A DNA stretch of 27,600 bases from a virus. The notes under the pieces are model-generated. The model worked only from the letters and a program-made list of their open reading frames with translations, was not told the DNA's origin and ran no database searches. The stretch covers positions 1 through 27,600 of the IMG/VR virus record IMGVR_UViG_3300047476_000730; one strand, given 5' to 3'. The translations under genes were made by a program, and so were the position numbers. Positions within the stretch are counted from its first letter, which is position 1; the number at the start of each line of letters is the position of its first letter. Below are positions 6,101 to 10,048 of this stretch, piece by piece.

Positions 6101-6108
6101 TATATTTG
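6101..6108 (+). promoter_or_regulatory. Promoter -7 box for leader RNA A
   Basis: TATATTTG matches TAnnTTTG exactly. Transcription would begin at about 6112-6116, right at the 5' arm of the first hairpin of leader RNA A, which is good placement. No clear -33 TTTG is present upstream; the region is A+T-rich with GTTAAAT at 6078-6084. Confidence 0.6.
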
Positions 6109-6113
6109 CAAAA

Positions 6114-6203
6114 GTTACGACTGTGCAGAGTCATTTAAGTAACATCACATTGACCACTTATGCCTTAGTAGGACTGCACTCCGAACGGGCTGAGTGGTTT
6201 TTT
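6114..6203 (+). ncRNA. Structured leader RNA A (kissing-loop attenuator candidate)
   Basis: 5' hairpin: GTTAC (6114-6118) pairs with GTAAC (6139-6143) and GACT (6119-6122) with AGTC (6129-6132), with a six-base bulge ATTTAA on the 3' side and loop GTGCAG (6123-6128). 3' hairpin: ACCACT (6153-6158) with AGTGGT (6193-6198), GCC (6162-6164) with GGC (6188-6190), GGA (6171-6173) with TCC (6180-6182), and loop CTGCAC (6174-6179), the exact complement of the first loop. Six T follow, then the ATG at 6208. Leader RNA B repeats the design with different stems. I recognise no known riboswitch class. Confidence 0.75.
6153..6203 (+). terminator. Intrinsic terminator inside leader RNA A
   Basis: The 3' hairpin of leader RNA A ends in six T (6198-6203) and has the form of a rho-independent terminator. 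It lies only four bases before the ATG of the ABC/GNAT gene, so full termination would prevent expression of that gene; conditional read-through is the natural reading. Confidence 0.65.
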
Positions 6204-6207
6204 ATTT

Positions 6208-7350
6208 ATGAAAATTAATTTAAATCACAAAATTAAAAATGACAAATATACAGAATATGTATATGAATCATTTGATATTCAAAATAAAGAAGAATCAAAA
6301 GTTTTAATTGAATCAAATCTTGAAAATTTGCCAGATGAATGGAATATTGGTGTTGTTTATGGTGGAAGTGGAACAGGTAAAACAACTATTTTAAAACATT
6401 ATTTCAAAAAAGAAATTGATAAATCTTATTTTGATAATGAAAAATCTTTAATATCAAATTTTGATTGGTTAGAACCAAATGAAGCAACTCAATTATTATC
6501 ATCAATAGGTTTATCTTCTGTGCCTACTTGGTTAAGACCTTACAATACTTTATCAAATGGCGAACAATACAGAGCAAATTTAGCTTATATGATTGGGAAA
6601 GCATCTCAAAATGAAGTTATATTGGTTGATGAATATACTTCAGTAGTAGATAGAGATGTGGCTAAAGCTATGTCAAATGCTTTACAAAAATATATTCGAA
6701 AAAATAATAAAAAAATTGTTCTTGCTTCATGTCATTTTGATATAATGGAATGGTTGCAACCAGATTGGATTTATTCACCGCAAAAAGGGCGTCTTGAAAT
6801 AGCGCCACGTCTTCGGCGACCAGAAATTAAATTGGAGATATTTCGATGTAGATATGAAACTTGGAAAATATTCAAACAACATCACTATTTAACTGAAGAT
6901 TTAAATAAAGCTGCGATTAATTATTTAGTTTTATGGAATGACAAACCAGTTGGATTTATAGCAATTTTACCATTTCCAGGAGTTGGAGATTCAAAAACAA
7001 GAAGAATATCAAGAATAGTAATTTTACCAGATTATCAAGGATTAGGAATAGGTAAAAAAATAATTGATTATATAAGTAGTTTATATTCAAAAATTGATTC
7101 TCAAATGTTTATAAGAACAATTAACCCAGCTTTAGGCATTTCATTGACTAATGATGTAAAAAATTGGCAACCAACAACTTCAAATTTAAAAGCTAATTTT
7201 GCCGCTGATACAAGCGGAAGAAAATTACTTAATAAAATAAGTTATTCTTTTAAATATATTGGACAAAAGTCCACAGATTCAGAAAATATTATTATATTTG
7301 ATGCTGATGCTTATAAACACGTATCACAAAATCAAATTGAATTATTTTAA
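6208..7350 (+). CDS. ABC-type ATPase fused to a GNAT acetyltransferase
   Basis: A 380-residue two-domain protein. N-terminal ABC ATPase: Walker A GGSGTGKTT (52-60), signature LSNGEQ (115-120), Walker B VILVDE (137-142) and switch His176. C-terminal GNAT domain, about 205-350, with the acetyl-CoA loop RIVILPDYQGLGIG (269-282). No membrane segment, so it is not a transporter. The HHYL and RRISR patterns in the GNAT part recall phage Mom-type modifiers, so a nucleic-acid or nucleotide modification role is possible but unproven. Codon use is far more A+T-rich than in the structural genes, suggesting transfer. Expression probably depends on leader RNA A. Confidence 0.85.
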   Translation: MKINLNHKIKNDKYTEYVYESFDIQNKEESKVLIESNLENLPDEWNIGVVYGGSGTGKTTILKHYFKKEIDKSYFDNEKSLISNFDWLEPNEATQLLSSIGLSSVPTWLRPYNTLSNGEQYRANLAYMIGKASQNEVILVDEYTSVVDRDVAKAMSNALQKYIRKNNKKIVLASCHFDIMEWLQPDWIYSPQKGRLEIAPRLRRPEIKLEIFRCRYETWKIFKQHHYLTEDLNKAAINYLVLWNDKPVGFIAILPFPGVGDSKTRRISRIVILPDYQGLGIGKKIIDYISSLYSKIDSQMFIRTINPALGISLTNDVKNWQPTTSNLKANFAADTSGRKLLNKISYSFKYIGQKSTDSENIIIFDADAYKHVSQNQIELF

Positions 7351-7361
7351 AAACAAACAAA

Positions 7362-7496
7362 ATGGAAACAAAAAAAGAAAAAAAATCTGAAGCAATAATT
7401 AAATTATTGTCAGAACAAAAATCGGTTAAACAAATATCTGAAGAATTAAAAACTCCTGTTGCTTATGTCTATAAAATAAAAAAGACAATTAAGTAA
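7362..7496 (+). CDS. Mini helix-turn-helix protein, 44 aa
   Basis: ATG at 7362, 11 bases after the ABC/GNAT stop, opens a 44-codon frame ending TAA 7494-7496. The sequence SEAIIKLLSEQKSVKQISEE followed by LKTPVAYVYKIKKTIK fits a compact HTH (helix, ISEEL, turn with Pro, VAYVYKIKK recognition helix), similar to the HTH of resolvases and sigma region 4. Very basic N-terminus. Its stop lies just before leader RNA B, so it might bind DNA or that RNA; this is a guess. Confidence 0.6.
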   Translation: METKKEKKSEAIIKLLSEQKSVKQISEELKTPVAYVYKIKKTIK

Positions 7497-7584
7497 TTAA
7501 AACGCTGTGCAGAGCGTATTTAAAAACAATAATAACTCATTATTTACATTAAATCTGCACGTTAATGTATTTAATGAGTTTTTT
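7497..7584 (+). ncRNA. Structured leader RNA B (second kissing-loop element)
   Basis: 5' hairpin: TTAAA (7497-7501) with TTTAA (7519-7523), ACGCT (7502-7506) with AGCGT (7513-7517), one bulged A, and loop GTGCAG (7507-7512). 3' hairpin: AACTCATTA (7534-7542) with TAATGAGTT (7572-7580), TACATTAA (7545-7552) with TTAATGTA (7562-7569), and apical loop with CTGCAC at 7555-7560. Six T follow (7579-7584) and the ATG is at 7590. Loops and spacing match leader RNA A; the stems do not match in sequence but remain paired. No promoter box is seen, so it may be read from upstream. Confidence 0.75.
7534..7584 (+). terminator. Intrinsic terminator inside leader RNA B
   Basis: A long A+T-rich hairpin with two stems of 9 and 8 base pairs separated by a 2x2 internal loop, followed by six T, then ATTTT and the ATG at 7590. 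As with leader RNA A, the terminator sits directly before a start codon. Confidence 0.65.
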
Positions 7585-7589
7585 ATTTT

Positions 7590-7976
7590 ATGATACAAAA
7601 AAAATTATTTGATGATTATCATCCACAAATTGAAAACAAAAAAATAAATTCAAAATATTACGGAAGTAATTTGAATCAATTAGTTGCTGAAAAATGCAGA
7701 ATTGACATGGTAGTTAATAACATTGATTTAATTATCAATGATTATAAAAACAATTCAATAAGAATAATAGAATCAAAACATAATAAAGAACAATTAACTA
7801 AAGGTCAAGAATTACTTTTAAAGCGTTTATCGTCAAAAGGAATAAACACTTATGTTGTATATGGTGATTATCCATACGAATCAGCTATTATTTACTCATT
7901 TCAAACCGGTAAATCATTACAAGTTAATAAAGAAACATTAATTAAATTTTTAAACAATGAAGATATATCTAATTAA
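7590..7976 (+). CDS. PD-(D/E)XK-like nuclease, 128 aa
   Basis: A 128-residue protein with a restriction-like core: Glu34 in LVAEKCR, Asp46/Asp51 in the strand DLIINDYKNNSIRIIESK, the ExK pair Glu61 and Lys63, and Gln73 in TKGQELLLKRL, followed by a strand NTYVVYGD. This resembles VRR-NUC and Hjc-type small nucleases, which act on branched or damaged DNA or in defence. The core is deduced by eye. The gene follows leader RNA B and shares the A+T-rich composition of the segment. Confidence 0.6.
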   Translation: MIQKKLFDDYHPQIENKKINSKYYGSNLNQLVAEKCRIDMVVNNIDLIINDYKNNSIRIIESKHNKEQLTKGQELLLKRLSSKGINTYVVYGDYPYESAIIYSFQTGKSLQVNKETLIKFLNNEDISN

Positions 7977-8097
7977 ATCACCGAATGGAACGAATCATTC
8001 AGTATTAGCTGAAACTTTTTTTCATGCAGTTCAAATAGCAGTAAATAGAGACAATTATCAATTTTCTAATGTTGAATATTTTAAATTAAATAAATGA
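7957..8097 (+). CDS. Hypothetical small protein, 46 aa
   Basis: ATG at 7957, overlapping the nuclease gene by 20 bases, gives 46 codons to TGA 8095-8097, which overlaps the initiator start (ATGA). The product, MKIYLIKSPNGTNHSVLAET then FFHAVQIAVNRDNYQFSNVE, looks like a strand-helix-strand unit. No family recognised. Overlaps on both sides support it as a translated gene. Confidence 0.55.
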   Translation: MKIYLIKSPNGTNHSVLAETFFHAVQIAVNRDNYQFSNVEYFKLNK

Positions 8098-8720
8098 AAG
8101 ATGCTTATTATTTTCCGCATTTTTGTAATGCGAGACATGACAGAAAAATTAAACGAGTTTTAAAAGAACTTGGAATTGAAGGATATGGAATTTATTTCAT
8201 GCTTTTGGAAGTTTTAAGAGAACAAACTGATTTTAAATATCCGTTAAATGAACTTGATTTATTGGCTGATGAATTTGGAACAAGTGAGCAAAAAGTAAGA
8301 ATAATTGTATGCAATTATGGCTTATTTCAAGTCGATGAATTTCAAAGTTTTTTTAGTCTAAAACTCATTGAATTTATGCAACCTTACTTAAAAATGAAAG
8401 AACAGCGAAGTCTTGCTGGCAAAGCATCTGCTGCTAAAAGAACTCAACGGTTGCTCAACGACCGTTCAACGACCGTTCAACAAAGTAAAGTAAAAGAAAG
8501 TAAAGTAAATGAAATAAAAGAAAATGAAATTATAGAGTATTTTACTTCAAACGGATATACTTCTGAATCTGCTAAAAAGTTTTTTAACTATTACTCCGTA
8601 GCTGAATGGAAAGACGGTAACGGTAAACCAGTAAAGAATTGGAAGCAGAAAGCACAGGCTGTATGGTTCAAAGATGAAAATAAAATGAAACCAAAAACAT
8701 TTACAAAAGAATTATTATGA
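8094..8720 (+). CDS. DUF4373-like replication initiator, 208 aa
   Basis: Residues 1-95 (start MKDAYYFPHFCNARHDRKIK, then LGIEGYGIYFMLLEVLRE) match the Lin1244/Lin1753-type N-terminal domain, a winged-helix fold in Bacteroidetes and Firmicutes phage initiators. A Lys/Glu/Ser-rich linker (about 117-146) follows, then a small C-terminal helical domain with EYFTSNGYTSESAKKFFNYY and the WKDGNGKPVKNWKQKAQAVW pattern of DnaD/replisome organizers. The DnaB-like helicase gene overlaps it by 4 bases. The linker DNA holds 11-bp repeats that look like origin iterons. The N-terminal half is more A+T-rich than the rest, suggesting a mosaic junction. Confidence 0.8.
   Translation: MKDAYYFPHFCNARHDRKIKRVLKELGIEGYGIYFMLLEVLREQTDFKYPLNELDLLADEFGTSEQKVRIIVCNYGLFQVDEFQSFFSLKLIEFMQPYLKMKEQRSLAGKASAAKRTQRLLNDRSTTVQQSKVKESKVNEIKENEIIEYFTSNGYTSESAKKFFNYYSVAEWKDGNGKPVKNWKQKAQAVWFKDENKMKPKTFTKELL
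8444..8540 (+). other. Candidate replication origin: iterons within the initiator gene
   Basis: TCAACG occurs at 8444, 8455 and 8466 and TCAACA at 8477, exactly 11 bases apart; the middle two repeat units are identical (TCAACGACCGT). An A-rich tract lacking C (about 8482-8535, repeats of AGTAAAGTAAA and GAAATAAAAG) follows directly. Iterons plus an A+T-rich opening region inside the initiator gene is the layout of the lambda origin in gene O. Confidence 0.55.
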
Positions 8721-10048
8721 ACGTAGAAGAATCAATTTTAGGTACTTGCATAGCATACCCAGAAAATAGCGACAAGATATTTGAAACGCTAAAACCAGAA
8801 CACTTCGCTAAATCAGAACATCAAGTATTGTTCAATGTTTTATCTAAACTCTACGCATCTGGAAAAGGATATGATTTACTCATCGTAACAAAAGAAATTC
8901 ACTCAAGTGGAAAGTTAGAACAAGCTGGTGGAGTTTACTATGTAACTCAGCTAACTAATCACGTCGCATATGGCGATAAGTTAGAATCTTACATCTATAT
9001 CGTTTTAGAATCGTTTTTACGGCGTTCAATTCATAAAATGGTAGTAGATATTAACTTGAAGGCAACAAACGAAACTACTGACGTTTTTGAACTTATTAGT
9101 GAGTTTAGTCAAAAGTTAGATAAATTAAGTCAAAACACATCGGTTTCGAGTTATGAAATAATTGAGAAAGTCAAAGATGATGTTTTATACTCAATGACAA
9201 AAGCGGTAACTGAGGGAGTAAGTGAAGGAGTAAAAACTGGAATTAATAGTTTAAATCGTCAAACTAACGGATGGCAGAAGTCCGATTTAATTATTTTAGC
9301 TGGAAGACCCGGAATGGGAAAGACATCCGCAGCAATAGATTTTGCATTAACTCCAGCTTTAGAGAATAAGACCGTTTTATTGTTTAGTTTAGAAATGTCC
9401 AGCGAACAGATTACTAAGCGTATTCAGTCTATACTTTCAGGAGTTGACGTTCAACGAGTGGTTAATAACACTCTTAATAAAGATGAACTCAGGCAAGTTC
9501 AAATGGCTTCTGAAAGATTAAATAACATTCCGCTATACTTAGACGATACTCCAGCAATTACTGTTTTTGATTTTAAGAACAGAGCCAAAAAGTTACAACG
9601 TGAGAAAGGATTGGACTTAATCATAGTTGATTATCTTCAACTTATGAGAGGTGAATCAAAGAATCGTGAAAATGAAATAAGCGAAATAAGCAGAGGATTA
9701 AAAGCAGTGGCTAAAGAGTTAAACGTTCCCGTGATTGCTTTGAGTCAATTAAGCAGAAAATGCGAAGAGAGACAAGATAAAAAACCGATGTTAAGTGATT
9801 TAAGAGAATCTGGTGCTATAGAACAGGATGCAGATATGGTTATATTTTGTCATCGACCAGAGTATTATTCAATACATGAATATGAGATTGGTGGTAATTT
9901 AGTGCCATCGGCTGGACTATTTGTCTTTATGATTTCAAAGTTTAGAAACGGTCAGACAGGAGAAATAAAAGCACGATGGATTGGAAATAACACGATGGTG
10001 ACTAATTATGATGTTGAGCCATTGCCAGTAAATAATGACTTTTTTTAA
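8717..10048 (+). CDS. dnaB: DnaB-type replicative helicase
   Basis: A 443-residue hexameric helicase of normal DnaB length. Residues 1-100 are the N-terminal domain (EESILGTCIAYPENSDKIFE). The RecA-like domain has Walker A AGRPGMGKTS (195-204), Walker B LIIVDY (301-306), the catalytic Glu in FSLEMS (226), a sensor-like VIALSQLSRKCEER and a C-terminal ESGAIEQDAD arginine-finger region. It unwinds DNA at the phage fork. It follows the initiator gene by a 4-base overlap, and no separate helicase loader is seen, so the initiator may load it. Confidence 0.93.
   Translation: MNVEESILGTCIAYPENSDKIFETLKPEHFAKSEHQVLFNVLSKLYASGKGYDLLIVTKEIHSSGKLEQAGGVYYVTQLTNHVAYGDKLESYIYIVLESFLRRSIHKMVVDINLKATNETTDVFELISEFSQKLDKLSQNTSVSSYEIIEKVKDDVLYSMTKAVTEGVSEGVKTGINSLNRQTNGWQKSDLIILAGRPGMGKTSAAIDFALTPALENKTVLLFSLEMSSEQITKRIQSILSGVDVQRVVNNTLNKDELRQVQMASERLNNIPLYLDDTPAITVFDFKNRAKKLQREKGLDLIIVDYLQLMRGESKNRENEISEISRGLKAVAKELNVPVIALSQLSRKCEERQDKKPMLSDLRESGAIEQDADMVIFCHRPEYYSIHEYEIGGNLVPSAGLFVFMISKFRNGQTGEIKARWIGNNTMVTNYDVEPLPVNNDFF

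Follow-up and report, generated by a model that had tools for sequence, protein, structure and literature searches.

Comparison of leaders from many Bacteroidota phages showed a conserved RNA fold, predicted from sequence, in which a loop–loop (kissing) helix is joined to a terminator-like hairpin between a promoter and a start codon. Two copies, leaders A and B, lie in the window, i.e., the whole 27,600-nt stretch of viral DNA analysed here (IMG/VR record IMGVR_UViG_3300047476_000730). The leader is best read as a cis-acting kissing-loop attenuator, to which we assign a probability of roughly 52%, and would point to an undescribed type of gene switch.

The features of both leaders and their neighbouring genes are listed in Table 1. 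As the preliminary description had claimed, GTGCAG in the loop of the 5′ hairpin (loop 1) and CTGCAC in the loop of the second hairpin (loop 2) are present in A and B (coordinates in Table 1), with loop-to-loop gaps of 45 nt (A) and 42 nt (B) and a CTGCAC-to-T6 distance of 18 nt in both. The start codon follows CTGCAC at 28–29 nt and the beginning of the T-run at 10–11 nt. The ATTTAA motif, proposed as a single-stranded linker in both leaders, was found in leader A within the extended 5′ hairpin. Compared with dinucleotide shuffles, the folds of A and B had z-scores of −3.2 and −5.5, respectively. A descriptor of two complementary-loop hairpins with T6 and a nearby ATG matched A, B, and one unrelated site in the window, compared with an average of 0.2 matches in shuffled windows, and two same-loop elements occurred in one of 200 shuffled windows. 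A simple terminator scan detected neither leader because internal loops interrupt the terminator stems. With filters off, covariance model R1, from which the kissing helix was left out, scored leader A at 25.9 bits (E 0.003), its terminator-like hairpin being the top match within the window; leader B was not found in the R1 scan of the window. No TAnnTTTG promoter was found upstream of leader B, which is probably inside an operon. Leaders A and B have one loop pair in common despite different stems and flanks, and cross-pairing of A loops with B loops is possible.

Table 1 Positions of leaders A and B, their parts, and the adjacent genes in the window.
Feature	Position	Strand	Description
−7 promoter element of leader A, Bacteroidota-type	6101..6108	+	TATATTTG, by sequence
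Leader A	6114–6207	+	5′ hairpin, terminator-like hairpin, T6, start codon
Leader A 5′ hairpin	6114..6143	+	GTTAC-GACT-(GTGCAG)-AGTC-ATTTAA-GTAAC; extended by GTTAC 6114–6118 pairing with GTAAC 6139–6143
Leader A kissing loop 1	6123–6128	+	GTGCAG, complementary to 6174–6179; flanks GACT 6119–6122 and AGTC 6129–6132
Leader A terminator-like hairpin	6152..6203	+	Basal stem, AGTA/GAA internal loop, apical GGA/TCC, T6 (6198–6203)
Leader A kissing loop 2	6174–6179	+	CTGCAC; flanks GGA 6171–6173 and TCC 6180–6182
Leader A start codon	6208	+	ATG
ABC-type ATPase/GNAT fusion	6208..7350	+	phrog_11143; first gene past leader A
44-residue HTH-like ORF	7362..7496	+	Between the leaders; Pfam HTH_23, under gathering score
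Leader B	7497–7589	+	5′ hairpin, terminator-like hairpin, T6, start codon
Leader B 5′ hairpin	7502..7517	+	ACGCT 7502–7506, (GTGCAG), AGCGT 7513–7517
Leader B kissing loop 1	7507–7512	+	GTGCAG
Leader B terminator-like hairpin	7532..7584	+	Loop 2 CTGCAC 7555–7560, T6 7579–7584
Leader B start codon	7590	+	ATG
Nuclease-like protein	7590..7976	+	First gene past leader B; weak phrog_5702 (Holliday junction resolvase) match, E 3e-4
Lin1244_N replication-initiation-like protein	8094..8720	+	Leader B operon; Pfam PF14297, phrog_2562
DnaB-like replicative helicase	8717..10048	+	phrog_19

A DNA pattern with the GTGCAG loop matched 13 viral contigs, most of which have TATATTTG directly 5′ and a start codon directly 3′; in L001, L002, and L009, the pattern matched one strand and the leader lies on the other. 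A structural scan yielded many leaders with other complementary loops, e.g., GTGGAA, CGTGAG, CGGGCA, GGGCAT, GTAGAA, and GTTACG. When run strictly on the DUF6291 set, it gave nine matches versus none in reversed sequence, and 47 of the 58 distinct regions upstream of DUF6291 genes carried a leader (three in the reversed control). A covariance model without the kissing helix recovered more leaders in other phages, most of those inspected having complementary loops; the remainder were plain terminators or had matched by chance. Relatives with conserved complementary loops, on which the preliminary description had made its proposal depend, were thereby found in many Bacteroidota phages, with loops that are otherwise entirely different.

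The usual order of the leader is a TAnnTTTG promoter, the 5′ hairpin, an A-rich linker, the second hairpin, a T-run, and a start codon, and in most leaders the promoter is directly upstream and the start codon directly downstream. TAnnTTTG is the primary-sigma consensus of Bacteroidota (PMC7366714). In most relatives, this element precedes loop 1 by 12–24 nt. Loop 1 comprises 6 to about 14 nt, and the linker of about 20 nt contains a AAAGAAATTATTA-like sequence. The second hairpin has a basal stem of 7–11 bp, an apical stem of 3–5 bp (longer in B), and, at one place, a 3 × 4 or 4 × 4 purine internal loop (TGAA/GGAT in either orientation, GGA/GAA, or AGTA/GAA), which is replaced by TT/TT in leader B (2 × 2), L078, and L040. 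The AGTA/GAA form in leader A may resemble a sarcin–ricin module. Complementarity between the loops extends over 6–10 bases. The T-run, retained in nearly all members, lies 16–28 nt from loop 2, and the start codon follows the second hairpin and T-run at about 8–36 bases. A short upstream ORF of the kind found in amino-acid attenuators was considered and rejected, since on visual inspection no conserved reading frame begins at the AUG of the AATGAA motif.

The loop–loop contact was evaluated in 29 leaders upstream of DUF6291 genes, gathered solely via the downstream protein. The kissing helix was paired in 96.4% of cells with double-sided changes at seven of eight pairs, and covariation over the whole structure was 0.540, compared with 0.176 when partners were shuffled and at most 0.10 when they were slid. 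Fifteen different loop pairs comprised 117 Watson–Crick pairs out of 120, and 0 of 100,000 permutations did as well, permutation figures that are not exact probabilities because the related sequences are not independent. Two pairs of near relatives, each with a common gene, have different loops and intact pairing: L234 (CTGCAT/ATGCAG) and L240 (ATGCAG/CTGCAT), in which the loops are swapped, and L043 (GTGCAG) and L095 (AGTCTC). These exchanges therefore represent repeated compensated change. A DNA pattern blind to the loops gave promoter/terminator matches that were sorted by T-run: loop–loop complementarity of at least 7 bp was present in 40 of the 41 matches with a T-run, which contain at least 21 different loop sequences, and in 6 of the 38 without one. 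In an all-against-all covariation scan of 68 leaders, the first-ranked pair belonged to the kissing helix, and all of the top 16 mapped to that helix, to the 5′ hairpin, or to the basal or apical stem of the second hairpin. One compatible four-helix fold was thus returned, and the terminator-like hairpin and kissing helix were therefore selected together. Because matching loops change together between viruses, we consider the kissing contact real. The covariation that had been proposed from A and B is not strong for that pair alone, the two leaders being too dissimilar; the proof comes from the relatives, across which covariation strongly supports a kissing-loop leader.

Genes after leaders encode DUF6291 and Lin1244_N proteins, HTH proteins, a helicase, NUMOD4/HNH endonucleases, DNA methyltransferases, YopX-like and ABC-GNAT proteins, and many short proteins; replication-initiation, HNH endonuclease, or methyltransferase genes often follow. 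In L074, a relative of the Lin1244_N gene is directly 3′ of a leader. The ABC-GNAT protein (phrog_11143, unknown function) has 174 viral relatives and occurs in 76 phage records, including Nonlabens, Tenacibaculum, Vibrio, Aeromonas, and Leptospira phages; a search of genome contigs with this protein found nothing. A tie between leader and ABC-GNAT gene was rejected, as nearly all of 80 inspected relatives have no leader directly upstream; one that does is L078 (loops GTAGGAG/CTCCTAC).

Cultured carriers are Flavobacterium phage 11b, Cellulophaga phage phi19:3, and Flavobacterium phage tooticki6-1. The covariance model matched three of 198 Bacteroidota genomes, of which solely a Vicingaceae prophage contig was convincing; the other two (L288 and L289) have no convincing kissing loops. 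A chromosomal housekeeping leader was rejected on this basis, one of the three being the prophage-bearing genome used as a search centre, and the element is phage-borne. Of 25 leader-bearing records, which may be fragments, one contained a tyrosine integrase, and most carriers therefore look virulent. A short plain hairpin with a T-run and no kissing loop follows a promoter at L004:3624-3714, L006:2709-2801(-), L184:8577-8662, L199:7980-8071, L201:5228-5319, and L203:723-814, several with a start codon next, in the same kinds of phages. The promoter–terminator–gene order may be a general plan of early genes in such phages.

Attenuation is preferred because the terminator-like hairpin with its T-run and the start codon are conserved alongside the kissing helix. 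The second hairpin would be an intrinsic terminator. The 5′ hairpin would fold first as RNA polymerase departs and then capture the emerging loop 2; this contact would brace the interrupted terminator hairpin, and most transcripts would end in the T-run. Read-through into the gene would be confined to a fraction of transcripts or to those with the contact broken, possibly by a competing RNA, a protein, or a faster polymerase. In this way, the contact would determine how strongly or when early and replication genes of the phage are expressed. Terminator bracing with low default read-through is preferred over a mutually exclusive switch because the four helices are compatible and co-selected; no competing or antiterminator helix was seen in the all-against-all covariation of the 68 leaders. 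The coexistence of all helices favours bracing, as an indication rather than a proof that kissing aids termination. Some of the same phages have plain promoter–terminator–gene leaders without kissing loops, and the contact would therefore be dispensable for termination as such. More tentatively, and at somewhat less than even odds, the leaders may form a new class of self-contained regulatory terminators, in which intramolecular kissing of an upstream hairpin with the terminator loop sets termination and the loops diversify as address labels would; such terminators would be widespread among Bacteroidota phages that look virulent and would time replication and other early genes.

Early-gene regulation in Bacteroidota phages is hardly known, and a compact RNA with a covariation-backed tertiary contact, positioned between promoter and start codon in many phages, offers a directly testable switch. 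It would be among the few natural terminator hairpins in a loop–loop tertiary contact, and the variety of loop pairs found in nature would supply orthogonal regulators.

The main rival to the attenuator is antitermination resembling that of HK022 put, in which the folded leader near the polymerase would cause read-through of its own and perhaps later terminators, the contact being the ON state. Early transcripts of HK022 likewise begin with a two-hairpin RNA, put, and the leader stands at the extreme 5′ end of phage early transcripts behind a constitutive-type promoter, with a fixed loop 2-to-T-run distance by which the kissing complex comes to lie close to the RNA exit channel and a purine internal loop conserved below the apical stem. 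We nevertheless consider this reading unlikely: the T-run is kept in nearly all leaders, whereas to our knowledge none directly follows put sites; leader B is within an operon; and no compensating loss of termination is apparent from sequence. We also know of no described loop–loop helix with hypervariable covarying loops in put. A somewhat less probable reading is self-recognition in trans, by which terminated leaders of ~95 nt would accumulate and kiss nascent leaders of the same phage type, giving copy-number feedback or keeping out like phages, in the manner of P4 immunity or the copy control of plasmids. The fast turnover of loops between relatives with complementarity kept, as for address labels, and the many leaders that precede replication genes would fit, and the P4 CI RNA terminates its own replication operon via leader pairing (PMC4825925). 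However, lysogenic immunity is unlikely as a general role because most carriers have no tyrosine integrase, and no separate antisense gene was seen. Leaders of one genome, moreover, mostly differ in their loops (10 of 11 contigs by inspection, the window being the exception), so there is no common loop address, and the idea of one address per phage was rejected.

The preliminary description had also suggested ligand sensing. A receptor formed by the kissing complex and the purine internal loop, either a riboswitch or a site for a host or phage protein, would set termination or translation; the recurrence of the internal loop at one place and the A-rich linker with its AAAGAAATTATTA-like sequence are in its favour. 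Against it, loop sequences are not fixed, and the sole recurring core-like feature is that small purine loop, which has several forms, is flipped in some leaders, and gives way to TT/TT in others; no conserved aptamer core, no pathway common to the downstream genes, and no Rfam match were found. A metabolite riboswitch is thus unlikely given the wide gene range and the absence of a fixed core, the ligand-sensing claim found no support, and a receptor in the broader sense is improbable. Least probable is a structural 5′ element or replication-primer RNA, with a fold that would shield the 5′ end of the mRNA, place ribosomes, or prime DNA replication and a T-run that merely belongs to an A/T-rich start region. 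Bacteroidota start regions are A/T-rich and leaders are frequent before replication genes, but the T-run adjoins the hairpin and separates the complementary-loop cases from the rest in the loop-blind pattern, and endonuclease, ABC-GNAT, and YopX genes also follow leaders.

The attenuator-like leader was compared with known systems. No Rfam family matched in the window or 12 leader-bearing loci, weak matches (E up to 10), e.g., RsaOG, being rejected. The earlier statement that no described class fits is supported by Rfam and the open-access literature, in which neither a family nor a paper describes the leader, subscription papers and preprints being largely outside the search; we rate it as a new class within leader attenuators. 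P4 and pT181 are similar in logic, and by the features tested the leader is a member of neither. The P4 CI RNA/seqA–seqC system likewise involves a phage leader, internal complementarity, and premature termination before replication genes. In P4, a processed antisense RNA acts on two leader sites, one on either side of it (PMC4825925), and the termination site is Rho-dependent, to judge from the title of a cited work. In contrast, loop 1 here has the terminator-like hairpin's own loop as its partner, Rfam gave no match, and the carriers mostly have no integrase, the mark of a P4-type temperate phage with an immunity RNA having been found in one of the 25 possibly fragmentary records. In the plasmid pT181, a terminator in the 5′ UTR of the replication gene repC is under loop–loop kissing control, and the internal loops of the kissing hairpins matter (PMC4878617). 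The leader resembles it in having a terminator-like hairpin, often ahead of a replication gene, and a kissing contact; however, in pT181 an antisense RNA made separately and an antiterminator sequence are needed, whereas the present leader has both loops on a single RNA and no covarying alternative helix that would correspond to the competing antiterminator helix. As to an antisense RNA from the opposite strand, sigma-70-like promoters matched the leader region at chance level. The loops of the guanidine-II riboswitch are short, nearly invariant, and guanidinium-binding. Two 5′-leader hairpins of this (mini-ykkC) riboswitch are proposed to kiss (PMC7544219, PMC9300104). The present leader differs in its freely varying complementarity of 6–10 bp, its phage genes downstream, and its at least 21 loop sequences.

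Upstream of 10001 in L273 (Pedobacter sp. Leaf170), a promoter, GATTGACA...TGTCAATC, and a longer hairpin precede a DUF6291 gene, an arrangement that may be a diverged version of the leader. The leaders at L095:2420-2539 and L229:1230-1350 are near-identical, and their downstream proteins have different N-terminal domains and a common C-terminus, as if modules had been exchanged behind the leader.
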